From Methanothrix sp. (GTDB taxonomy: Archaea; Halobacteriota; Methanosarcinia; Methanotrichales; Methanotrichaceae), in the NCBI RefSeq assembly GCF_026419855.1, contig NZ_JAOAKP010000007.1:1-49916 (forward strand): 49,916 bases of DNA, read 5' to 3'. Shown here one piece after another: positions 15,826 through 42,737 of the stretch (within the stretch, counting starts at the first letter, position 1; every line of letters begins with the position of its first letter). The notes under the pieces are model-generated. The model saw only the letters and a program-made list of their open reading frames with translations. It had not been told where the DNA came from and did not search any database. The translations under genes and the position numbers were made by a program.

Positions 15826-16302
15826 TCAATTCAATTTAATAATTTCATATCTATCTTTGTTTGGGTTGACCAGAAGCTCCTCTGCGATCCTTCTGGCCAC
15901 GGACTCCGGATCATCTCCATCTATGTAGAGCTTCCAGATGTTTGCCCGCTGTACGGCTCGTATCATCTTCAGCCCCAGTCTCTTCACCAGACGATCTCTT
16001 ATCGATACGGCCTCGCCGTCCTCGATCCAGAGGCTCACCTTCACAGGAACAAAGCCGTTGCTCAGATCCAGGGAATTCACAGAGACCGCGAAGCTCTCCT
16101 TGTTCTCATTGACGAGCTCTCTGGTGAGCTGTTTTATCAGGGAGTCGGGGTCGCTCACGTCATCGGCCTCTATACTAAGAAGCCTCTCGCGCTTGACATC
16201 CCTGACGATGCCCTGGTAACCCATGCGCCTCAGGAGCGTGTTCTTCACGGTGGCAGCCTCGGCATCGGGTATCTTGAGCCACACTCTAAGATTGATGATC
16301 AT
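15826..16302 (-). CDS. purS: Tandem-duplicated PurS (FGAM synthase small subunit)
   Basis: PurS bridges PurL and PurQ in formylglycinamidine ribonucleotide synthase, the fourth step of purine synthesis. A normal PurS has about 80 residues and works as a dimer. This chain has 158 residues and two PurS-like units: residues 1-74 (LRVWLKIPDAEAATVKNTLL, ending NKESFAVSV) and residues 84-158 (VKVSLWIEDGEAVSIRDRLV, ending NKDRYEIIKL), each beta-alpha-beta-beta-alpha-beta. Its start overlaps the purQ stop by four bases, so it is the last gene of purL-purQ-purS. A covalent dimer is the simplest reading. Confidence 0.85.
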   Translation of the reverse strand: MIINLRVWLKIPDAEAATVKNTLLRRMGYQGIVRDVKRERLLSIEADDVSDPDSLIKQLTRELVNENKESFAVSVNSLDLSNGFVPVKVSLWIEDGEAVSIRDRLVKRLGLKMIRAVQRANIWKLYIDGDDPESVARRIAEELLVNPNKDRYEIIKLN

Positions 16303-17087
16303 GATCGCCTCTCCTCTATGTATCTCTTCATCGATTCAAAGATCAGCCTCCCCGGCCCGTATCCCTGAACCCTGGGATGCTTCCGCGGGAGCTGCCATGC
16401 AAAGAACGCCCTCTCCGGATGAGGCATCATCCCAAGGACATTGCCCTCTGGGTTGCATATGCCGGCGATGTTCTCTGTGGACCCGTTCACATTCACAGGA
16501 AACTCGTTGATTATTTCCCCTCGCTCGCTGCAGTACCTGAAAACGATCTGACCGTCATCGATGAGCCTCTCGATCACTTTTCTATCAGATGCAACAAGGT
16601 TTCCCTCAGCATGCGCGATCGGTATGCTCAGGATGTCACCTCTCCTCAGAATGTATGAGCCGCTGCATCTCTTCTCCTCAGCATCATGCCTGAGCATCGT
16701 CCAGGCGCAGTAGTACCCGCGGCGCACGATCTCTCCACCTCTGATCATGACGTTCTGCGCTAGCGCCAGCCTAACTCCATCCCCGAATGGGAGAATCCCT
16801 GACTCCACGAGTACCTGAAATCCATTGCAGATCCCCACGATGGGCTTTCCCCTCTCAGCTTCTTCCCTCAGCGTGGCCATTACAGGCTCCTTGGATGCTA
16901 TAACACCGGCGCGCACCCTGTCCTGGTACGAGAAGCCGCCTGGTATCACATATCCATCGAACTCGCAGAGCTCCTGCTCAGGACGGTTCCATCTGAAGAT
17001 CTCCCCATCCATGCCACACTCTTTTACAGCCACAAGCGTCTCGTGCTCGCAGTTCGTGCCCGGGAACTGTACCACAGCGATCCTCAT
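16299..17087 (-). CDS. purQ: FGAM synthase glutaminase subunit PurQ
   Basis: PurQ is a class I glutamine amidotransferase that supplies ammonia to PurL. The N-terminus RIAVVQFPGTNCEHETLVA is characteristic. The nucleophile cysteine is in VGICNGFQVLVESGILP (about residue 96), and the histidine/glutamate pair is in GMMPHPERAFF near residue 220. The length of 262 is normal for archaeal PurQ. It overlaps both neighbours by four bases (ATGA type), giving a tightly coupled purL-purQ-purS operon. Confidence 0.96.
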   Translation of the reverse strand: MRIAVVQFPGTNCEHETLVAVKECGMDGEIFRWNRPEQELCEFDGYVIPGGFSYQDRVRAGVIASKEPVMATLREEAERGKPIVGICNGFQVLVESGILPFGDGVRLALAQNVMIRGGEIVRRGYYCAWTMLRHDAEEKRCSGSYILRRGDILSIPIAHAEGNLVASDRKVIERLIDDGQIVFRYCSERGEIINEFPVNVNGSTENIAGICNPEGNVLGMMPHPERAFFAWQLPRKHPRVQGYGPGRLIFESMKRYIEERRS

Positions 17088-19390
17088 CTCATCGCCTCCC
17101 GCAGCCCGGAGCTCCAGGCATCCCTTGCATCCTCCGGATCGAGCCTCACAAGCACCTTTCCATCTCTCACAATCTCAATGCTGCCGGTCGATACTCTGCC
17201 TAGCCTCACGGGATTCAGATTGTAGCTACTGGCAATACTCACAAACTCCTGCTCCGCTCCATCCACAACCTCCACTATGAATCCAGAGGACTCTGAGAAG
17301 AGGAGCCTGTCGGATCGCATATCACCCACACCGGATATGTCGATGGAGATCCCATGATCTGAGAGCATGCACATCTCAGCTGCTGTTACTGCCATCCCTC
17401 CGTTCGATATGTCGTGAGCTGCCCGCAGAATCTCGCGATCCACAGCATCTATGACCGTGTATATCATGGACCTCTCCAGCGGGAACCTTACAACAGGCAC
17501 GTTCGCCCCTGTGACTCCCCAGATTACACGGTAGTACTCTGAGCCGCCGAGCTCATCGAACCTGGGTCCGAGAAGGTACAGCACATCACCACATTCCTTC
17601 AAGGGCATCGTGATCGCCTTGTTTATGTCTTTCATTACACCAACACATGCTATGACAGGCGATGGATCGACGGCCCCCTCCGGGGACTCGTTGTAGAAGC
17701 TCACATTTCCCGAGACTATGGGTACTGGCTGTCCTGGATACCCCTTGAGCCAGAGGTTCCTGGCAGCATCAGCCAGACCCCGAACCGATTCCCTGAACTC
17801 CCAGAAGGCCTCTGGCTTCTCCGGGTTGCCGAAGTTCAGGCAGTCTGTGAGCGTCGATGGGGTCGCGCCTATGGCTGCAACGTTCCTCATCGCCTCAGCG
17901 ACCGCCGTGGCCCCTCCCCAGTAAGGGCTGATCCTTCCATAAAACGGGTTTGAATCCACGGACAGCGCAATCCCAAAGTCCTTTCCCCTGATCGGAGCGA
18001 TGAGGCCTGCATCAGCCTCCCCAGGCCGAATCACGGTGTTCCCCTGGACCTCTGTGTCGTAGTACCTGTAGATGTGCTCCCTTGAGGCTATATTCGGGGA
18101 GGAGAGCAGATCTAGCATCACACTGTTGAGATCCTCAGGCATTTTCACATCAGGCTCAAGGAGGTTTCTGATCCTTGGTCGCCACGCCCTCTCGTATCTT
18201 ATCCCACCTGTCAGATGCTTTATGGGGACATTAACAACCTCCTCACCTCTGTGACGGACTATGTATCTGTCGTGAGTTGTCATCCTGCCTATAACGCTCG
18301 CCCTAGCGCCCTCGTAGACGTTCGGCAGATCCCAGTCCACGTTATATATCCTGAGAATCCTCTCGCTAAGCTCCCTGGGAGCTATTATCAGGAACCTCTC
18401 CTGTGTCTCGGCTATGCACAGAACCTCAGGCGGGAATTCGCCCGCAACATGGAGCCTGTCAAGGTCGATCTCCATTCCGTAGCCTCCAGCCGCTCCCATC
18501 TCTGATGATGCGCAGGTGAGCCCCCCACCCCCCAGATCCTTGAATCCTATCTCGACGCCCTCCTCGCGCACGAGCCTGAAGAGATCCTCGTTGGCCTTGA
18601 AGAGAACGTTCTTGAGGAACGGATCCGGGATCTGTACAGCTCCGCGGTTTGTCTCCTCCTCTTCCTCCCTGAGCGTGTCTGATGCGAATACCACTCCACC
18701 AAAACCTGAGGAGTCTGTCGGCTTTCCGACAAGAATTACATCATAGCCCTTCTCGCCAGAACCTGGAGGCGCGCGCGATCTTATGATCTCATCTCTTCTA
18801 ACAACACCAATCGCAACCACGTTGACGAGACAGTTGTAGTCGAAGCATCTGCTGAAAACGACATCTCCTGCGATGACCGGCACACCCAGCGCATTGCCGT
18901 ACTGCCAGATCCCGTCGACAACGCCCTCTGCAACCCAGCGCACCCTGCTCGACTCCCGTCCATACGGATCTCCAAAGCGGAGGGGATCTGCGGTCGCGAC
19001 GACCCTAGCGCCCATGCAGTTCACATCGCGCACGATTCCGCCAATGCCGGTTGCCGCCCCTTCATTCGGAAGTATCTGGCTCGGATGGTTGTGGCTCTCG
19101 TGGGATATCACCACGCACCATTCGTCATCTATGCTCACAATCCCGGAATCCTCGACAGGGCCGAGAACAACGTTCGGACCTTCCGTCGGCAGGAACTCTC
19201 TCAGCACGGCCCTGCTGCTCTTGTACGAGCAGTGCTCAGACCACATGGCATCGTAGCAGAAAAGCTCGGCCAGCGTCGGATCCCTTCCCAGGATCGAGGC
19301 TATGGAACGCGCCTCTGATACAGACATGCCGATTCCTGCCTTCCGTAAACTCGATTCGAGCTCGCTATCGGCAAGACCGATTACCTTCAA
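17084..19390 (-). CDS. purL: FGAM synthase large subunit PurL (short form)
   Basis: PurL catalyses the ATP-dependent amidation of FGAR in purine synthesis with PurQ and PurS. Its 768 residues match the short archaeal/Gram-positive form. Motifs are DAMWSEHCSYKSSRAVLREF (about 48-67), ISHESHNHPSQILPNEGAATG with the catalytic histidine, DLGGGGLTCASSEMG, and the second half LTDCLNFGNPEKPE and HDISNGGMAVTAAEM. The start is TTG at 19388-19390, preceded by GAGGTG at suitable spacing. It is first in the operon, and an M1 mobile element copy sits 149 bases upstream. Confidence 0.96.
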   Translation of the reverse strand: MKVIGLADSELESSLRKAGIGMSVSEARSIASILGRDPTLAELFCYDAMWSEHCSYKSSRAVLREFLPTEGPNVVLGPVEDSGIVSIDDEWCVVISHESHNHPSQILPNEGAATGIGGIVRDVNCMGARVVATADPLRFGDPYGRESSRVRWVAEGVVDGIWQYGNALGVPVIAGDVVFSRCFDYNCLVNVVAIGVVRRDEIIRSRAPPGSGEKGYDVILVGKPTDSSGFGGVVFASDTLREEEEETNRGAVQIPDPFLKNVLFKANEDLFRLVREEGVEIGFKDLGGGGLTCASSEMGAAGGYGMEIDLDRLHVAGEFPPEVLCIAETQERFLIIAPRELSERILRIYNVDWDLPNVYEGARASVIGRMTTHDRYIVRHRGEEVVNVPIKHLTGGIRYERAWRPRIRNLLEPDVKMPEDLNSVMLDLLSSPNIASREHIYRYYDTEVQGNTVIRPGEADAGLIAPIRGKDFGIALSVDSNPFYGRISPYWGGATAVAEAMRNVAAIGATPSTLTDCLNFGNPEKPEAFWEFRESVRGLADAARNLWLKGYPGQPVPIVSGNVSFYNESPEGAVDPSPVIACVGVMKDINKAITMPLKECGDVLYLLGPRFDELGGSEYYRVIWGVTGANVPVVRFPLERSMIYTVIDAVDREILRAAHDISNGGMAVTAAEMCMLSDHGISIDISGVGDMRSDRLLFSESSGFIVEVVDGAEQEFVSIASSYNLNPVRLGRVSTGSIEIVRDGKVLVRLDPEDARDAWSSGLREAMR

Positions 19391-20503: not shown

Positions 20504-21493
20504 TCAACTGATCCTTTCGCCAGCATGCTCCGCTCTGCGGAAGCATGCCCTTCCGGTGGTCCCCAGAAAGCTCTTCAGCTCCTCGGTTCCAGCATCAGGG
20601 TTCTCCTCGAGATACCTGGCAACCTCTGGTATGTGAACCAGGACACAATCGATGCACGACCAGAACCTCTTGCCTCTTTTTGTTCTCACGAATCTTCCAA
20701 GCTCTGGGTCCTTGCATGGGTAGAGCGGACAGAAGCAGTGGATGCAGTCCTGCCCCTCGAAGTGGTGGCACGGATAGTACCTGCAGTTCTCCCGGCCGGT
20801 GTTTATCGGAGCTGCTTTCAGCACATCTCTTATCGCGCACGGGTCATCGGTGACAAGACCATCAGCCCCAAGCCTGAGCATCCATGCTGCCCGCTCAGGG
20901 GTGTTGACCGTCCAGGGGTAAACCCGTATGCCCCTTTTGTGTGCGATCTTGAAGATGTTCGGGCTCACCCTCTTTGGAAATATCGCATCCGCATGCGCAT
21001 CCAGAGCTAAATCCACAGGGTTAACAGGCAATGAAGATATTATGATGCCGGTTTTTATCCCATCCGCGCCCTTCCTGTCCCTGAGAAGCTCGTGGAACTC
21101 AAGCACGCTTCTGTGGTAAAACGAAGTTACTATGGCCTTATATCCAAGGAGCTCCTCGAGAACAAGCTCCTCCAAGCCCTCCTCCTTCATCTCAACGACC
21201 GGCTGGATTCCTAAAGACCTCGCGAGCCTCAGCGCCTCCCGCAGTGTCGGCACAGGCTCTCCGCCTGCATCCAGGCACCTGAGCTCCCGGATGCTCAGAT
21301 CCTCGACCCTGCCTGAGCCATTCGTTGTCCTGTCGACGCTCTCATCGTGCATAAGGACCAGAACGCCGTCCGAGGAGAGACGCACGTCCATCTCGACCAT
21401 CTCGGCCCCGCATGAATGCGCCTTTCTTATTCCCTGCAGCGTGTTCTCTGGGGCGAGAGCAGAAGCACCACGATGCCCTATAAGCGCGGCCAT
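20504..21493 (-). CDS. Glycerophosphodiester phosphodiesterase fused to a Cys-rich domain
   Basis: The GDPD TIM-barrel occupies residues 1-235: IGHRGASALAPENT supplies the first catalytic histidine and arginine, VEMDVRLSSDG the metal-binding Glu/Asp, and MHDESVDRTTNG the second histidine. GDPDs release glycerol phosphate from lipid headgroups. Residues about 240-310 are a cysteine-rich segment (CRYYPCHHF, CIHCFCPLYPC, WSCIDC) resembling the small Cys-rich putative metal-binding domain found in archaea. I chose the ATG at 21493; an upstream extension to 21628 is unlike the family. The gene is divergent from SepCysS. Confidence 0.85.
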   Translation of the reverse strand: MAALIGHRGASALAPENTLQGIRKAHSCGAEMVEMDVRLSSDGVLVLMHDESVDRTTNGSGRVEDLSIRELRCLDAGGEPVPTLREALRLARSLGIQPVVEMKEEGLEELVLEELLGYKAIVTSFYHRSVLEFHELLRDRKGADGIKTGIIISSLPVNPVDLALDAHADAIFPKRVSPNIFKIAHKRGIRVYPWTVNTPERAAWMLRLGADGLVTDDPCAIRDVLKAAPINTGRENCRYYPCHHFEGQDCIHCFCPLYPCKDPELGRFVRTKRGKRFWSCIDCVLVHIPEVARYLEENPDAGTEELKSFLGTTGRACFRRAEHAGERIS

Positions 21494-21597
21494 CGATCGA
21501 GTATGGTGGAGACATGTATATTCCATTTTTGGATAGGAGAACTCTTCCTTAATGGAGAGATGGTTCCATCCGGAGGATATGGAAAAAGTTATCATGA

Positions 21598-22785
<1,188 letters not shown>

Positions 22786-27829: not shown

Positions 27830-29293
27830 CTGGATACCACACTGCGGGATGGCGAACAGACACCAGGGGTCTCCCTGAGCGCAGATGACAAGCTTCACAT
27901 CGCGCAGCTTCTCGATGAACTGGGCGTTGATGTGATCGAGGCCGGTTCTGCAATAACATCTGATGGGGAGCGCGAATCGATCCGTGCCATCGCGTCTGCG
28001 GGGCTGAAAGCTGAGATCTGCTCTTTTGCGCGTGCCAACCAAAAGGATATAGATGCTGCGCTTGATTGCGATGTCGATTCCCTGCACCTTGTCATTCCGG
28101 TCTCAGATCTTCACATCGAGAGAAAGCTGAGATCCAATAGGGAAGCAGTGCTCAGAAAGGCTGTTGAGGCCACCGAGTACGCGAAGGCGCACGGGCTGAT
28201 CGTCGAGCTTAGCGGAGAGGATGCGAGCAGAGCCGACCTTGATTATCTAGAATCAGTTTACAGAGCCACAATCGAGGCAGGCGCAGACAGGCTATGCTTC
28301 TGCGACACGGTGGGCGTTCTTCTTCCAGAGAGGACTGCGGAGATCTTTCAGCGCCTTAAGTCTCTGGGCAAACCCATAAGCATCCACTGCCATGACGACT
28401 TCGGGATGGCCACCGCGAACACTGTGGCAGCCCTCAGGAACGGCGCTGCGCAGGCGCATGTCACCATCAACGGCATCGGCGAGCGCGCGGGCAACACAAG
28501 CCTGGAGGAGGTCGTGATGTGCCTGGAGAACCTTTATGGTGTAAGGACAGGCATAAAGTGCAATCTTTTATATCAGATCTCCAGAGTTGTCTCGAAGAAG
28601 ACCGGCATACCTGTGGCGCCGAACAAGGCGATCGTAGGGGAGAACGCATTCACGCATGAGGCAGGCATACACGTCCACGGCCTGATCGCGGACACATCCA
28701 CATACGAGCCGATGCGCCCGGAGCAGGTCGGCAGGAAGAGGCGGATCGTGCTCGGGAAGATGTCGGGGAGAGCTGCGGTTGAGCTTGCCCTCAGGGAGTT
28801 CGGAATCACAGTAAACGAGGAGCAGCTGAACGAGATAGTGAGCAGAGTCAAGGAGCTTGGCGATAAGGGCAAGCGGGTCTCTGATGCAGACCTCCAGTCG
28901 ATAGCCGACACGGTGCTATCAAGGGAGCTGAAGCCAAGGGTGCTCCTGGAGGAGCTGACAGTGGTCAGCGGGAACAGGGTGACGCCCACAGCGAGCGTGA
29001 AGCTGATCCTGGATGGAAGAGAGACGCTGGAGGCTGGCGCAGGAGTCGGGCCTGTTGACGCTGCTGTGAATGCCGTCAGAAGGGCTATATCGGGCGTAAC
29101 AGATATTCGCCTTGAGGAGTACCATGTGGATGCCATTACGGGTGGAACAAATGCCCTGGTCGAGGTATGGGTGACAATGGCTATAGGAGATAGAAGCATA
29201 ACAGCCAGGGGCGCAGGGGCTGATATCATAATGGCCTCCGTCGAGGCTGTTCTGGAAGGTATAAACAGGCTGATGCTTTTGGAGGATAGATGA
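27830..29293 (+). CDS. cimA: Citramalate/2-isopropylmalate synthase, start probably CTG
   Basis: This enzyme of the LeuA/CimA family condenses acetyl-CoA with pyruvate (isoleucine route) or 2-oxoisovalerate (leucine route). The metal/substrate motif [12 protein letters not shown] begins at the N-terminus, followed by [17 protein letters not shown] and [16 protein letters not shown]-terminal LeuA-type regulatory domain is present ([18 protein letters not shown]). Position before ilvBNC and similarity to the methanosarcinal arrangement favour CimA. No ATG, GTG or TTG exists in frame before 27932. The frame is open from 27794, and CTG at 27830 lies seven bases after GAGGT. A +1 frameshift from the mini-ORF would add VRFL, as in relatives. 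Confidence 0.88.
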
Positions 29294-30963
29294 TGGTCAG
29301 GATGACAGGAGCAGAGGCGATCATAGAGTGTCTCAGGCGGGAGGGCGTAGAGGTGATATTCGGCCTTCCCGGCGGAGTTCTGCTTCCGCTGTACGATGCG
29401 CTGTACAGCTCCGATCTGAGGCACATACTGGTCAGGCATGAGCAGGCGGCTGCGCATGCAGCAGATGGATACGCTAGGGCTACTGGCAGGGTAGGCGTAT
29501 GCCTGGCCACCTCTGGTCCTGGCGCGACCAACCTTGTCACAGGCATAGCCACAGCCTACATGGACTCGGTGCCGATCGTCGCAATGACCGGCCAGGTAAA
29601 CACAGGCCTCATCGGAAAGGACGCGTTCCAGGAGGCGGATATCACCGGCATAACCATGCCGATAACAAAGCACAACTACCTGATAAAGCGCTCCAAGGAT
29701 ATACCCCGGGTCTTCAGGGAGGCATTCTACATAGCGAGGACCGGCAGGCCAGGGCCAGTCCTGATAGATCTGCCAAGAGACGTAACAGTGGACGAGCTGG
29801 AGTTCGATTATCCGGAGATAAACCTTCCAGGCTACAATCCAACAACGAAAGTCCACCAGCTCCAGATAAGAAGGGCTGCAGAGGCGCTGATGGCTGCGGA
29901 GCGGCCTGTGATATATGCCGGAGGGGGCGTGAGGTATGCGAACGCGCACGAGGAGCTCTTCCAGCTCGCCACGCGCCTGAACGCTCCTGTGACAACAACA
30001 CTCATGGGCTTGGGCTGCTTCCCGACAGACCATCCGCTATCCCTCGGAATGCTCGGGATGCACGGGACCAAGTACGCGAATCTCGCAGTCCAGGAGGCTG
30101 ACGTCCTTCTGGCGGTCGGAGCACGGTTCGATGATCGCGTCACAGGGAAGATCGCTAGCTTCGCACCAAAGGCCAGGATAATACATATCGATGTGGATCC
30201 AGCTGAGATCGGCAAGAACGTGAGGGTTGATATTCCAGTCGTCGGCGATGCCAAGATCGCTCTAACAGAGCTGCTGAAGCATGTTCAGCAGAAACCCTGG
30301 GGGGAATGGAACGAGAAGATACTCATGTGGAAGAAAGAGTACCCGCTGCGGTACACCAGAGACGAGAACGTGATAAAGCCGCAGTTTGTAGTCGAGAAGA
30401 TATGCGAGCTGTGCCCGGATGCGATAATAGTTACAGAGGTTGGACAGAACCAGATGTGGGCGGCGCAGTTCTTCAAGCACAGGGATCCCAGGAAGTTCAT
30501 AACCTCAGGTGGTCTTGGAACTATGGGCTACGGATTCCCGGCTGCGATCGGCGCGAAGATAGGGAGGCCAGAGTGCGAGGTTATCGACATCGCTGGAGAC
30601 GGAAGCTTCCAGATGAACATACAGGAGCTCGCGACCGCGGTTGTCAATGATATACCTGTGAAGATCGCGATACTGAACAACGGGGTGCTGGGCATGGTCA
30701 GGCAGTGGCAGACCCTCTTCTTCGGAAAGAGGTACTCTCACACAACGCTCGGTGACGTGCCTGATTTCGTCAAGGTCGCTGAGGCATATGGCGCCTTAGG
30801 CCTCAGAGCCACGAAGCCATCGGAGGTCGAGGATGTGCTTAAAGAGGGGCTTGCATCAGACAAGCCCACAGTTATGGACTTCATAGTCCACAGGGACGAG
30901 AAGGTATCGCCGATGGTGCCGGCGGGAGCATCACTTAGCGAAATACTGGAGCTGGATTCATGA
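29290..30963 (+). CDS. ilvB: Acetolactate synthase large (catalytic) subunit
   Basis: This thiamine-diphosphate and FAD enzyme condenses two pyruvates, or pyruvate with 2-oxobutyrate, in valine and isoleucine synthesis. The catalytic glutamate is in [17 protein letters not shown] near residue 50, and the TPP motif runs [16 protein letters not shown] to LNN near residue 445. The length of 557 is typical. The start overlaps the preceding stop (ATGA) and has GGAGG five bases upstream. It is second in the cimA-ilvB-ilvN-ilvC operon. Confidence 0.97.
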
Positions 30964-31457
30964 AGCACACCATCGCAGTCATAGTTGAGAACAAGCCCGG
31001 TGTCCTGACAAGAATCTCCGGGCTGTTCAGCAGGAGGGGCTTCAATATAGAGAGCCTCTCAGTTGGTGCCACTGACAATCCCGCCTACTCCAGGATGACT
31101 ATCTCCGTCGAGGGCGATGATGTCGTTCTGGAGCAGGTCGTGAAGCAACTCAGCAAGCTGATCAATGTCATAAGGGTTAGCAGGCTCGATCCTGAGGAGT
31201 CGGTGGAGCGCGAGCTTGCGATCATAAAGGTCAGCGCGAACAAGGATACACGATCCGAGATAATGCAGATCGTCTCTGTATTCAGAGCCAGAATAATCGA
31301 CGTCTCCCCGAGATCTCTCATCATAGAGGTCACTGGGGATGAGAAGAAGGTCGATGCGCTGCAGCAGATGCTCCGCCAGTTCGGGATCAAGGAGATGGCC
31401 AGAACAGGCAAGGTCTCCATGGTCAGAGGAAGCAAGGTGGTCCAGGCTGGACCGTGA
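30960..31457 (+). CDS. ilvN: Acetolactate synthase small (regulatory) subunit
   Basis: This ACT-domain regulatory subunit binds valine and activates IlvB. The N-terminal ACT domain reads [19 protein letters not shown] with NIESLSVG. A second, IlvN-type C-terminal domain contains [18 protein letters not shown]. Length is 165. The start overlaps the ilvB stop by four bases. Confidence 0.96.
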
Positions 31458-38043: not shown

Positions 38044-41000
38044 TCATATGCACCCCTTTGTGCAGTCGTCCCTCTTATCCATCTCATCGTATATCTCATC
38101 GATCGCGCCCTCGCAGTCCTCGAAGCTCCTGTTTATGCCGATGCAGCTGTACGATTCCGGGAGCACAAGTGTAAGGTTCTCCGCCGTGAGATTTTCTGCA
38201 GTGCCATCAATACAGCACGAGAGCCACTCCCTGTCGAACCTGACCGAAGCCTCAGCTGATACATCAACCCTCTCGGCCCTTGCTGTCACGTTGACGTGAT
38301 TCTCGAAGACCTCCATCTCCGGATCCATACTTGCGAAGAGCCTTATCTCCATCCTCCTGCTGATCTCCAGGAGCGGTATGCTCCAGTTGATGCATCTTCC
38401 CTCTATCAAGGGCCTGAGAGTGGAGTTGATCATCTCCAGCCCCTTGGGAAGCATATCTCTGACAATCACATCCCTAAGCGGCTCGTTCCCATCGTTTGTC
38501 ACATTTATTATGAAAAGCACATTGTTCTCATCGACAGGTACCACCACCTTCGTGATGTTGATGTGTGGATATAGATGCTTTGGCACCGCGTAAACGCTCA
38601 CCGCGAGATCCATCGTGTACCTGCCGGCGAGATCCTGCTCAACCCGAAGCGTCTCAGGCCTGCCCATCGTGGCTCTGATCTCTCCTCTTCCCTCGAACTC
38701 GCCCAGCATTGATAGGGACGACCTGCTGAGCTCGGACTCCATCCTGATGTACGGCGCATGACCGATGCGCTCCATAATCGCGAGATCCCTCGATCTGTCC
38801 TCTGTCAGTGATGATTCATGCCAGAGGTTGCTGAACCTAATCTCTCTTCCATCCAGCGTCATGTTCACCTCTGAGTTCGATGCCTCGAGATCTCTTTTCA
38901 TGATCTCAGTCTGGCGTATAAGGTCTGAGCGGTAGTAACCGCTGCCGCTCTCCCTGGATTCCATCGATCCTGCGCGAAGTTCAGAACCGACGAAACCCTT
39001 TCCAGATGATGCTCTCATGTATACAAGACCACTGCCGTATGAGTCGATCGATGATTCGGACCTGAAACTTCCCGCGTGCGTCTCATCTATGAGCGATGAT
39101 GTCTCTCTGGAGACGTATCTTATGCGCCTGATGCCCTGCTCGACCTCCGAGACCTCCCTGAAGGTGGTCTGGTTCGGGTCGGCCTGATATCTGCTGCTCA
39201 GATCCAGGGAGCTGGCGTACATGTAGCTGCCCTCGATCGATTCGCCCCTGTTACGGTTTCTGGATTCGGTGCTCTCGAACCACGATGATCTGAATTCGAC
39301 CTTTCTCCGGGGTAGCGAGAAGCGTGTGGGCCTATGCTCCGCGAAGATATCCTTCTCAACAGAGATGTTTCTGCTCGAGAGGTTGAGGTTCGCCAGGAGC
39401 TCCTCCTCGTAGTATCCGCTCCCGTGCTCTCTTGTCCTTATCTCAGATCCCGGATCTCCAGCGACCGTTATGCTCTTCGAGGTCGAGGCGTTGTGATACA
39501 CCTTTCTCCCATCGTCGCTGTAGTACCCGGTGATGTACGCCCTGTTTGTGTGCGACCTGGCCTCGATAGCTGTCGAGTAGCTCTTTCGGAGCCTCACAAA
39601 CCCCTTGCCCGAGACGCTCGAGCTCTCGTTGTAAATGAGGTTCGACCGCTCCGGCACCCTCATTATTATCACCACCGTCCCATTCTCGCCGCTCCTCAGA
39701 TTGCCGATGTTCCACACGAGCGTTCTGCCCCGCGCAGAGGGGTTGCCAGAGACGCTGACAAGCTCCAGATCAGGGAGCACATCTGTCACATTGACATCAT
39801 GCGCATCGTAATTTCCTTTGTTGCCGAATCTCACCGTGAACACGACCTCCTCCCCTGGCGCGTACACGTCCTTGTCAGAGCTCTTGTTTATCCACAGGCT
39901 CTGGATGACGCCTGTGATGAGAGTGCTGTTAACCCCAGTGAATCTGTCTGAATCTATGCGGTATGTGTTGACGATGAAATCCCTCTCAGTGCTTCCGACC
40001 ATCACCTCAATCTCGATCTCGCCGCCAGCGCCGGGTGCGAGCTCCGGGATGCTCCAGGTGCAGGTGCTACCAGAAGTGTGGGATGGTGCCGGAGAAGCGC
40101 TCAGATACCTCACTGCCGGATCCAGAAAGTCTGTGATGCGGACGTTTTTATGCATGTACAGTCCGTCATTGCTGTACGTTATCCTGTATCTCAATCTCGA
40201 TCCAGGCACCACGAGACCTGATGACGCGCTCTTGCTTATGTTGAGGCCTGTGCTGACGACTGTGGTGTTCAGAAGATGCGCATCACGAGATCCCTCAGCG
40301 CTCCGGATCTCGACCATGTTCGTTATGGTATTGGCGCTCTCCGATACCCGTCCCAGGATGCGTATGGTGCCTGACTCCCCAGCCCTCAGATCCCCTATAT
40401 GCCACATGTTCGTGCCGGAGTCGGGCGGTGGATCTGAGGATATGAAGCTGAAGTTTCCATCGTAGTGCTCTGTTATAACAACATCATGCGCATCCTCAGA
40501 TCCAGCGTTCTCGTACATTATTGTGTAGTTCAGCAGGGCTCCACGGGATGCGATCTCAGGATCTGAGCTCTTGTGGACCCTGAGCGTGGGCAGAGTCCTG
40601 TGAACATCAAGCGTGAAGGTGTCGATCGCAGATACCAGAAGACCGCTGGCATCTCTGGCCGTGACTGTAGCGATGTTCGTGAGCATGACCCTCTCCTCGT
40701 AAACTCTGTATCCAGGAGTCCTGCGGTACTCCTTGCTCACGATGTTTCCGAACAGATCCTGGATCGCTATGAGTGTATCTCCTGTGGTGTAATCTGTTAT
40801 CGTGTACGTTATGTACCCTGGAGATGGCGTATCGTACTCGATTCTTATGTACTCTCTAGTTAGCTCGAAGAGGCACTCCTCAGAGGATACGCGACCGTCG
40901 CGCCTGTACTCAGTTCTGAGTATCGCGCGCGATATCGGGTCGTGGTACTCTTTGGAGAGCAGAACACCGCTCGCATCGAACGACTCCAGGAGAACCTCCC

Positions 41001-41757
41001 TGGTGATGTTGTTTGTATGGTTCTCGAACCTGAGCCCCTGTCTGGTGTAGGAGATGGTCTGTGCTCTGGAGAAGTCAAAGCCCCTCTGTCTATCCCTGAT
41101 GATGGATAGCTTCGTCTCCAGCCGCTGCTTTCTCTTCAGCAGAGACCTGACGATCTCGCCTGTATCCGGTGCTGCCATTACGCTTAGAACCGCATCGCCT
41201 GCTGCGCCGTACTTCCTGGGATCAGGGAGCGTGAACCTCGCCTCGTAATGCCATATCTCGCCAGGGCTGAGAACGCCATCCCCATCATCCCCGGTGATGT
41301 AAACAGGCTCACATCCCGGACCCCAGCTGTGGGAATCGGTGAGATTGACATCGAAGAGATCGCTCCCCCCGGGATTAGAGATGTTGTAAGTATAGAGAAC
41401 AGAATCGCCGACGTGCGCAGGTTTTGTGTATGTGCAATCCTTATCAAGATGTATCTCTGATCTGCCGAGCTGCCCCGTCACGACCTCTATCGAGGAGATG
41501 TTGACGCATCCGCCTTCGATGGATTTAACAAGAAGCGTGACCTTCACCCTCTTCCCTGGCGTATCGGGGAGCTGGAACGTGAAGATCCGCTCATCACCCT
41601 GGGCGATAACCTGGCCATCCACCTGTGCAATCCAGTGGTAGATATAATCTCCCACAGGGCCGGTGAGAGTGATGCTTTTTCCATCATCCGCGGAGCACGC
41701 TGCTACTAGAAGCACCAGCATCGCTAATCCTAGGATCTTGGATGATATATGCATCAC
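38044..41757 (-). CDS. Large surface protein with DUF11 repeats and SGSGYY modules
   Basis: This 1237-residue protein has a signal peptide at residues 1-23 with a possible lipobox (VAAC). After an Ig-like segment (residues 25-110) there are at least four DUF11-type adhesion/envelope domains: YTYNISNPGG, LNYTIMYENAGSEDAHDVVITE, LRYRITYSNDG and VVFTVRFGNKGNYDAHDVNVTD, and another near residues 1070-1180 (NVLFIINVTNDGNEPLRDVIVRD). Residues about 790-1040 are a Ser/Arg/Glu-rich region with SGSGYY modules. There is no transmembrane helix near the C-terminus, which ends DDCTKGCI. The start overlaps the preceding stop, so it is in an operon with the PKD protein. Confidence 0.88.
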   Translation of the reverse strand: MMHISSKILGLAMLVLLVAACSADDGKSITLTGPVGDYIYHWIAQVDGQVIAQGDERIFTFQLPDTPGKRVKVTLLVKSIEGGCVNISSIEVVTGQLGRSEIHLDKDCTYTKPAHVGDSVLYTYNISNPGGSDLFDVNLTDSHSWGPGCEPVYITGDDGDGVLSPGEIWHYEARFTLPDPRKYGAAGDAVLSVMAAPDTGEIVRSLLKRKQRLETKLSIIRDRQRGFDFSRAQTISYTRQGLRFENHTNNITREVLLESFDASGVLLSKEYHDPISRAILRTEYRRDGRVSSEECLFELTREYIRIEYDTPSPGYITYTITDYTTGDTLIAIQDLFGNIVSKEYRRTPGYRVYEERVMLTNIATVTARDASGLLVSAIDTFTLDVHRTLPTLRVHKSSDPEIASRGALLNYTIMYENAGSEDAHDVVITEHYDGNFSFISSDPPPDSGTNMWHIGDLRAGESGTIRILGRVSESANTITNMVEIRSAEGSRDAHLLNTTVVSTGLNISKSASSGLVVPGSRLRYRITYSNDGLYMHKNVRITDFLDPAVRYLSASPAPSHTSGSTCTWSIPELAPGAGGEIEIEVMVGSTERDFIVNTYRIDSDRFTGVNSTLITGVIQSLWINKSSDKDVYAPGEEVVFTVRFGNKGNYDAHDVNVTDVLPDLELVSVSGNPSARGRTLVWNIGNLRSGENGTVVIIMRVPERSNLIYNESSSVSGKGFVRLRKSYSTAIEARSHTNRAYITGYYSDDGRKVYHNASTSKSITVAGDPGSEIRTREHGSGYYEEELLANLNLSSRNISVEKDIFAEHRPTRFSLPRRKVEFRSSWFESTESRNRNRGESIEGSYMYASSLDLSSRYQADPNQTTFREVSEVEQGIRRIRYVSRETSSLIDETHAGSFRSESSIDSYGSGLVYMRASSGKGFVGSELRAGSMESRESGSGYYRSDLIRQTEIMKRDLEASNSEVNMTLDGREIRFSNLWHESSLTEDRSRDLAIMERIGHAPYIRMESELSRSSLSMLGEFEGRGEIRATMGRPETLRVEQDLAGRYTMDLAVSVYAVPKHLYPHINITKVVVPVDENNVLFIINVTNDGNEPLRDVIVRDMLPKGLEMINSTLRPLIEGRCINWSIPLLEISRRMEIRLFASMDPEMEVFENHVNVTARAERVDVSAEASVRFDREWLSCCIDGTAENLTAENLTLVLPESYSCIGINRSFEDCEGAIDEIYDEMDKRDDCTKGCI

Positions 41758-42737
41758 TCCTCCACAAATGATATGAATACCTCCGGCTTTGGTACGACTC
41801 TTATCTCTTTAACACACGAAATGTTACCTGCGATCAGCCTGAGCTCGTGGATTCCAGCGCCGAATTCCGACCATACGATCTCCACGCTTTCCCCGTATCC
41901 GATCTCCCGGCCATCAAGCATCCATACATATTCTCTGCCGGTGGCGTTTGCTGTGTATCTCTGAACAGATTCCTCGCATGCCATTTCAGGACCGTCGATC
42001 TCGCAGAAGCAGCCCTCGATCGTTATAATAGAGGTGCTCCTAGATGTTCTGCCCTTTGAGTCGGTTACGTTCTGCGTTATCAGATATCTCCCAGGGCGAG
42101 AGTATGTATGCGCAGGGTTTGCCGCAGAGCTTCTCCCACCATCTCCCAGATTCCAATCATAGGTGTAGGGAGCCGCCCCACCCCTCGTCAGATCCCTGAG
42201 ATAGACCTGGCGACATACTGCCTGATACCCGAAACCTCCTGAGAGGGGGATGTCAACGCTCAGTCCCGGATGCGCCTGGCACTGCGTCGTCCTTTCGCCG
42301 CATTTCATCTTCGATATATCGCAAGCTTTCACTCCTGACGTCTCCCAGCTGAGTATCAGGTTTTTAAGTTGAATCTCCTCACCACATCTCCATTCGATCC
42401 CATGGATGGGAAACGACCTGGTCGATTTGCCCTGCAAAACATCGAGCACGCACATCTCTATTTTTTCCAGATTGCTGTTAACAACAAGATCTGCAAGCAG
42501 AACCAGGTTGTACCTCGGAGCACTCGCCCTGTTGGTTATGGTGATCCATATGTACGCCCTCGAGGAAGCGCCCTGCGAGCAGGGCTGGAGGGGTTTGCCT
42601 GATGCGTCTCCAAGATACACATTCTCAACCATCACATCCTTCGCAGTGCACTGGAACTTGCAGTCAGGCCAATCTGCAGCTGCAGGAAAGATGAGAAGCA
42701 TGATGAACGTCGTAAATACCGCCGATCTGCAATTCAT
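41754..42737 (-). CDS. Secreted PKD-domain protein
   Basis: This 327-residue protein has an N-terminal signal segment (FTTFIMLLIFPAAA) and many cysteines. A PKD domain is clear near residues 195-245 (YDWNLGDGGRS, then HTYSRPGRYLITQNVTDSKGR). A second Ig-like segment follows (YTANATGREYVWMLDGREIGYGESVEI). Its stop codon overlaps the start of the DUF11 protein (ATGA), so the two are translated together. Both are probably cell-surface proteins. Confidence 0.85.
   Translation of the reverse strand: MNCRSAVFTTFIMLLIFPAAADWPDCKFQCTAKDVMVENVYLGDASGKPLQPCSQGASSRAYIWITITNRASAPRYNLVLLADLVVNSNLEKIEMCVLDVLQGKSTRSFPIHGIEWRCGEEIQLKNLILSWETSGVKACDISKMKCGERTTQCQAHPGLSVDIPLSGGFGYQAVCRQVYLRDLTRGGAAPYTYDWNLGDGGRSSAANPAHTYSRPGRYLITQNVTDSKGRTSRSTSIITIEGCFCEIDGPEMACEESVQRYTANATGREYVWMLDGREIGYGESVEIVWSEFGAGIHELRLIAGNISCVKEIRVVPKPEVFISFVEE

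Follow-up and report, generated by a model that had tools for sequence, protein, structure and literature searches.

The small subunit of the purine-biosynthetic enzyme FGAM synthetase, PurS, is normally a protein of about 80 residues that forms a homodimer. It is found in archaea and Gram-positive bacteria (Pfam PF02700; solved structures 1gtd, 1twj, 1vq3, 2yx5 and 3d54, the last comprising PurL, PurQ and PurS of Thermotoga). In the one-chain enzyme, the large PurL or lgPurL, the N-terminal domain (1t3t of Salmonella; 9nb3 of human) holds two PurS-like units. The PurS homodimer has been treated as the equivalent of this domain, and a synthetic "PurSS" sequence was built for alignment (PMC3815217). 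A further arrangement is the mdPurL of some archaea, in which PurL is extended at its N-terminus by about 200 residues. Brown et al. (2011; PMC3261824) suspected a PurS-like role for this extension; the same paper presents the physiological form of the PurS dimer as disputed. Profile comparisons bear out the suspicion—the N-terminus of mdPurL aligns as two PurS units, with scores of 72 and 65 against single PurS. Among the genomes that we surveyed, such PurLs of about 975-1028 residues occur in families f5, f15 and f30 (loci L056-L059 and L160-L168), each of their two N-terminal PurS units being close to single PurS.

The tandem PurS module is thus no novelty in itself, since it opens lgPurL and occurs in mdPurL; what is apparently new in the locus described here is that the module stands alone as a protein. 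Our literature search recovered no description of such a freestanding tandem, though a figure of PMC3261824 may already mark the PurS of Methanosaeta thermophila. The initial annotation had been aware of no study of such a fused form.

The purSS gene and its operon

The window, that is, the whole stretch of 49,916 nucleotides of Methanothrix sp. DNA analyzed here, contains a tandem purS gene (purSS) on the minus strand at 15826..16302, which begins with ATG, encodes 158 residues and is present exactly as first annotated. It is the third and last gene of an operon with the order purL-purQ-purSS. The first gene specifies the synthetase subunit smPurL (17084..19390, minus strand; 768 residues; TTG start according to the ORF tool), which scores 735 bits against TIGR01736 of NCBIfam; the second specifies the glutaminase subunit PurQ (16299..17087, minus strand; 262 residues), which scores 233 bits against TIGR01737 of NCBIfam and contains the motifs GICNGFQ and MMPHPE. 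From the coordinates, purL overlaps purQ and purQ overlaps purSS by 4 nucleotides each, confirming the placement of the gene within a translationally overlapping purL-purQ-purS operon. A search of the source genome (1.9 Mb in 147 contigs) found no other PurS, leaving 15826-16302 as the sole locus; a second, normal PurS elsewhere in this genome was accordingly rejected.

The PurL of the Methanotrichaceae (in the window, 17084-19390, minus strand) is itself divergent, with TIGR01736 scores of about 708-741 bits versus about 860-990 in the other full-length smPurL scanned, and it stands apart from the PurL of the Methanosarcinaceae in FastTree trees. The entire purLQS set may have been replaced or transferred in this family. 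Elsewhere in the window, a LeuA-like synthase (HMGL-like and LeuA_dimer domains) and the large and small subunits of acetolactate synthase are encoded with overlaps of a few bases at 27932-31457 (plus strand), constituting an ordinary branched-chain amino acid cluster. At 38044-42737 (minus strand), a 1237-residue protein with four DUF11 stretches adjoins a 327-residue PKD-domain protein, both probably surface proteins, and a 374-residue frame at 20504-21628 (minus strand) combines a glycerophosphodiester phosphodiesterase domain with a small cysteine-rich zf-like domain (PF04071).

Two PurS units in one chain and their predicted fold

The Pfam PurS model (PF02700) recovers the whole 158-residue chain with 40.8 bits in two stretches, above its cut-off of 22.2, and this PurS family member is encoded with purL and purQ both in the window and in all 39 loci examined. 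When the halves are searched separately, Pfam PurS recognizes the second (24.6 bits) but not the first; hence, other evidence was needed for the latter. Aligned to each other, the two halves score 96, whereas 5000 shuffles reach 55 at most, with a mean of 26 and an sd of 4.9. When a profile built from 39 relatives is compared with one of 60 single PurS proteins, two alignments result, through residues 95-156 (E 3e-9) and 3-63 (E 2e-6). In comparisons of separate profiles, those of the first and second halves (tanN and tanC) match each other with E 2e-15 and an hhalign score of 77, and tanN matches single PurS with E 2e-7 and a score of 40, the score of tanC against single PurS being 54. The product nevertheless misses the equivalog cut-offs that NCBIfam sets for PurS (39.7 versus 122 for PRK06423; 24.8 versus 39 for TIGR00302). 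In sequence searches of the PDB, phmmer with the single protein as query found no entry, and the only PurS matched by profile was 2yx5, via the second half; a comparison of folds was therefore required.

An AlphaFold2 model of the PurSS chain alone, built on the 39 relatives, has a pLDDT of 94.7 and a pTM of 0.88 and shows two repeats with the chain folded as a pseudo-dimer. The first repeat comprises strand 2-9, helix 14-26, strand 33-46, helix 52-63 and strand 69-75, and the second comprises strand 85-91, helix 96-108, strand 114-127, helix 132-144 and strand 150-154. These elements, spanning residues 2-75 and 85-154, agree with the two PurS-like units that had been proposed at 1-74 and 84-158. 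The model, profiles and superposition together delimit an N-terminal PurS unit with a beta-alpha-beta-alpha-beta arrangement (residues 1-75; 16078..16302, minus strand) and a C-terminal one, also delimited by PF02700 (residues 85-158 and the stop codon; 15826..16050, minus strand); the short linker between them (residues 76-84; 16051..16077, minus strand) is placed by predicted secondary structure and alignment.

In a VIA-align search of the PDB, the top 19 structures are all N-terminal domains of the one-chain FGAM synthetase from Salmonella and human, whose residues 1-142 or 3-156 superpose on residues 1-155 of the model with 138-147 residues aligned, an rmsd of 2.7-2.9 and Z of 10.8-13.8. 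The lgPurL-type tandem pseudo-dimer fold is thereby predicted over both units, in the same order and packing. Solved PurS structures rank next, covering one half each over 74-75 residues (Z 5.4-6.4, rmsd 1.7-2.2): 1twj, 2yx5, 1gtd and 3d54_B superpose on the first half and 1vq3, 2cuw and 2zw2 on the second, giving each unit a PurS fold. Foldseek agrees with this ranking. Both halves are hence PurS-like by profile and by fold, contrary to the refuting case of a second half unlike PurS that the initial annotation had named. We consider it confirmed that the 158-residue frame holds two PurS units, and the model lends support to the original description of a "covalent dimer." PurSS shares with ordinary PurS the fold of each half, the D-x-E, L, G and N residues, the operon with purL and purQ and the expected role. 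It departs from it in having two diverged units in one chain of 155-168 residues rather than a single homodimerizing domain of about 80, and we file it as a tandem variant of PurS. Unlike the lgPurL domain, it is a separate protein, its gene lying downstream of purQ and accompanied by separate genes for PurL and PurQ, with no fusion to the synthetase domain. Its identity to that domain is 12-15%, and in sequence the two PurSS halves are closer to each other and to single PurS. From its fold, PurSS is predicted to be a freestanding counterpart of the pseudo-dimer with which the large enzyme begins.

Distribution and origin of the tandem

With the protein as query, a full-length tandem lacking internal stops was found in 24 of 25 genomes of the Methanotrichaceae, a family of methane-producing archaea, the source genome included, the relatives being 58-96% identical; the remaining genome (G024) gave no match in this search. 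No second PurS match was seen in the sampled Methanotrichaceae genomes, and the protein search had zero matches in genomes outside the family. Named records provided 39 loci, some of them from the same genomes as the 25, all assigned to Methanothrix, Methanosaeta, Methanotrichaceae or uncultured Methanosarcinales/Euryarchaeota, and all with the order purL-purQ-purSS. The initial annotation had itself raised the alternative of two genes joined only by a missed stop; an assembly error would have the same effect. Nothing was found in favor of either. The frame runs without interruption in the 24 genomes of the family and in the 39 contigs of the named records (overlapping sets that include single-contig genomes), and in no relative are the halves encoded separately or divided by a stop. 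We accordingly reject this explanation, whose probability is negligible given dozens of concordant assemblies, and regard the tandem PurS of the Methanotrichaceae as confirmed to be real, family-wide and conserved.

Across 296 genomes of the phylum, both halves were matched only in the Methanotrichaceae, all other matches covering residues of about 70-156, that is, the second half. In a Pfam PurS survey of 147 genomes, the remaining matches were single PurS proteins or PurS inside a PurL of about 990-1016 residues (families f15 and f30), and the survey of the class placed PurS inside a PurL of about 975-1028 residues in family f5. No relatives of PurSS were found in viral contigs. Family f10 (L130-L132, L136, L137 and L139), although it belongs to another class, supplies some of the best matches between a single PurS and the second half of the tandem; among those listed, none of the f3 genomes of that class had a match at E 0.01. 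In family f11, a PurS match in two pieces (profile positions 2-50 and 47-76) lies in one 213-residue frame (G250 contig 1, 546676-546948, minus strand) and appears to be one PurS carrying an insertion rather than a tandem.

The archaeal mdPurL resembles PurSS in that a tandem PurS stands in for the separate single PurS, and differs from it in that the tandem is fused to PurL. The freestanding protein could have arisen by gene fission, having broken away from the N-terminus of an ancestral mdPurL or lgPurL, rather than by duplication of a purS. An mdPurL with a tandem PurS N-terminus indeed occurs in f5, of the same class, as well as in f15 and f30, and the predicted PurSS fold matches the lgPurL N-terminal domain across both halves. 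However, the halves are closest to each other by profile and have no convincing match to the halves of the f5 mdPurL (hhalign probability of at most 27% for tanN and tanC), and the whole tandem matches the mdPurL N-terminal profile with only 13% probability. A tree of the halves, which has 84 columns and long branches and omits lgPurL and bacterial PurS, joins tanN and tanC, each monophyletic, in one clade at 100/99 and apart from both mdPurL halves. Furthermore, the Methanotrichaceae PurL falls outside the mdPurL clade in the PurL tree, and purSS follows purQ instead of preceding purL. None of these comparisons points to common descent with the mdPurL tandem, and we consider fission unlikely. 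As the halves are mutually closest by profile and form one clade in their tree, a single internal duplication in the ancestor of the Methanotrichaceae, independent of that in mdPurL, best fits the sequence data.

Divergence of the halves and a proposed role for PurSS

Both halves retain the D-x-E, L, G and N residues of single PurS in the alignment. They have diverged, as had been noted at the outset, each retaining a partly different set of the other canonical residues. The first preserves D13-x-E15, T18-x-K20 in helix 1 and N65 and lacks the P and Y of the canonical NPxxxxY (N65-E66-N67-K68-E69), E66 replacing the P and no Y being fixed. The second preserves D95-x-E97, L143-L144-x-N146-P147 and Y152; in its helix 1 the T is replaced by S100 and the K by a variable residue. 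Common to both are two changes not seen in single PurS: NK[E/D] in place of IH, and the loss of K-x-G, which is invariant among the single PurS proteins compared. As K-x-G is gone from both halves, the docking surface may differ from that of single PurS.

The losses in the first half, together with the fact that only the second is found by Pfam on its own and by the PurS of other Halobacteriota, might suggest that the first half is degenerate, with the second alone working and the chain dimerizing via it like ordinary PurS. Against this, dN/dS in six congeneric genomes is 0.070 for the N-terminal and 0.066 for the C-terminal half, such that the same purifying selection acts on both; the first half also has stretches that are strictly invariant among the relatives (IPDAEA, TVKNTL and LVNENKE), and the model packs both halves into what is predicted to be an lgPurL-like pseudo-dimer. 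Degeneration of the first half is thus highly improbable. The partly different canonical residues of the halves are consistent with specialization for separate positions, as the initial annotation had suggested, without constituting proof of it.

Taken together, we think it very probable that purSS is a tandem-duplicated purS whose product is a single-chain pseudo-dimer that stands in for the PurS homodimer. Like that homodimer and the N-terminal domain of the one-chain enzyme, PurSS would be non-catalytic and would dock between smPurL and PurQ, holding glutaminase and synthetase together so that ammonia can be transferred in the reaction FGAR + Gln + ATP -> FGAM. Since both PurS sites are in one chain, we infer that one PurSS would dock per PurL-PurQ pair, giving a PurL:PurQ:PurSS complex of 1:1:1 as opposed to 1:1:2, with each half always in its own position. 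More tentatively, and as one reasonable possibility, we suggest that the Methanotrichaceae have independently broken the symmetry of the PurS dimer in a freestanding protein. One internal duplication would have been followed by specialization of each half for its position relative to PurL and PurQ, the first through IPDAEA-TVKNTL of helix 1 and the second through LLxNPxKDxYE, resulting in an obligate 1:1:1 complex with an architecture between the three-gene PurLQS and the one-chain FGAM synthetase.

The kind of tandem that was synthetic in PMC3815217 exists as a natural gene in the Methanotrichaceae. It represents a further tandem duplication of this subunit, separate from that of mdPurL, in a single archaeal phylum. 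The PurS dimer consists of two identical chains, yet its contacts with PurL and PurQ would need to be asymmetric. A PurS with distinguishable halves would allow each position to be mutated separately, which is impossible in the homodimer. PurSS also illustrates what the N-terminus of the human enzyme may have looked like before its fusion to PurL.
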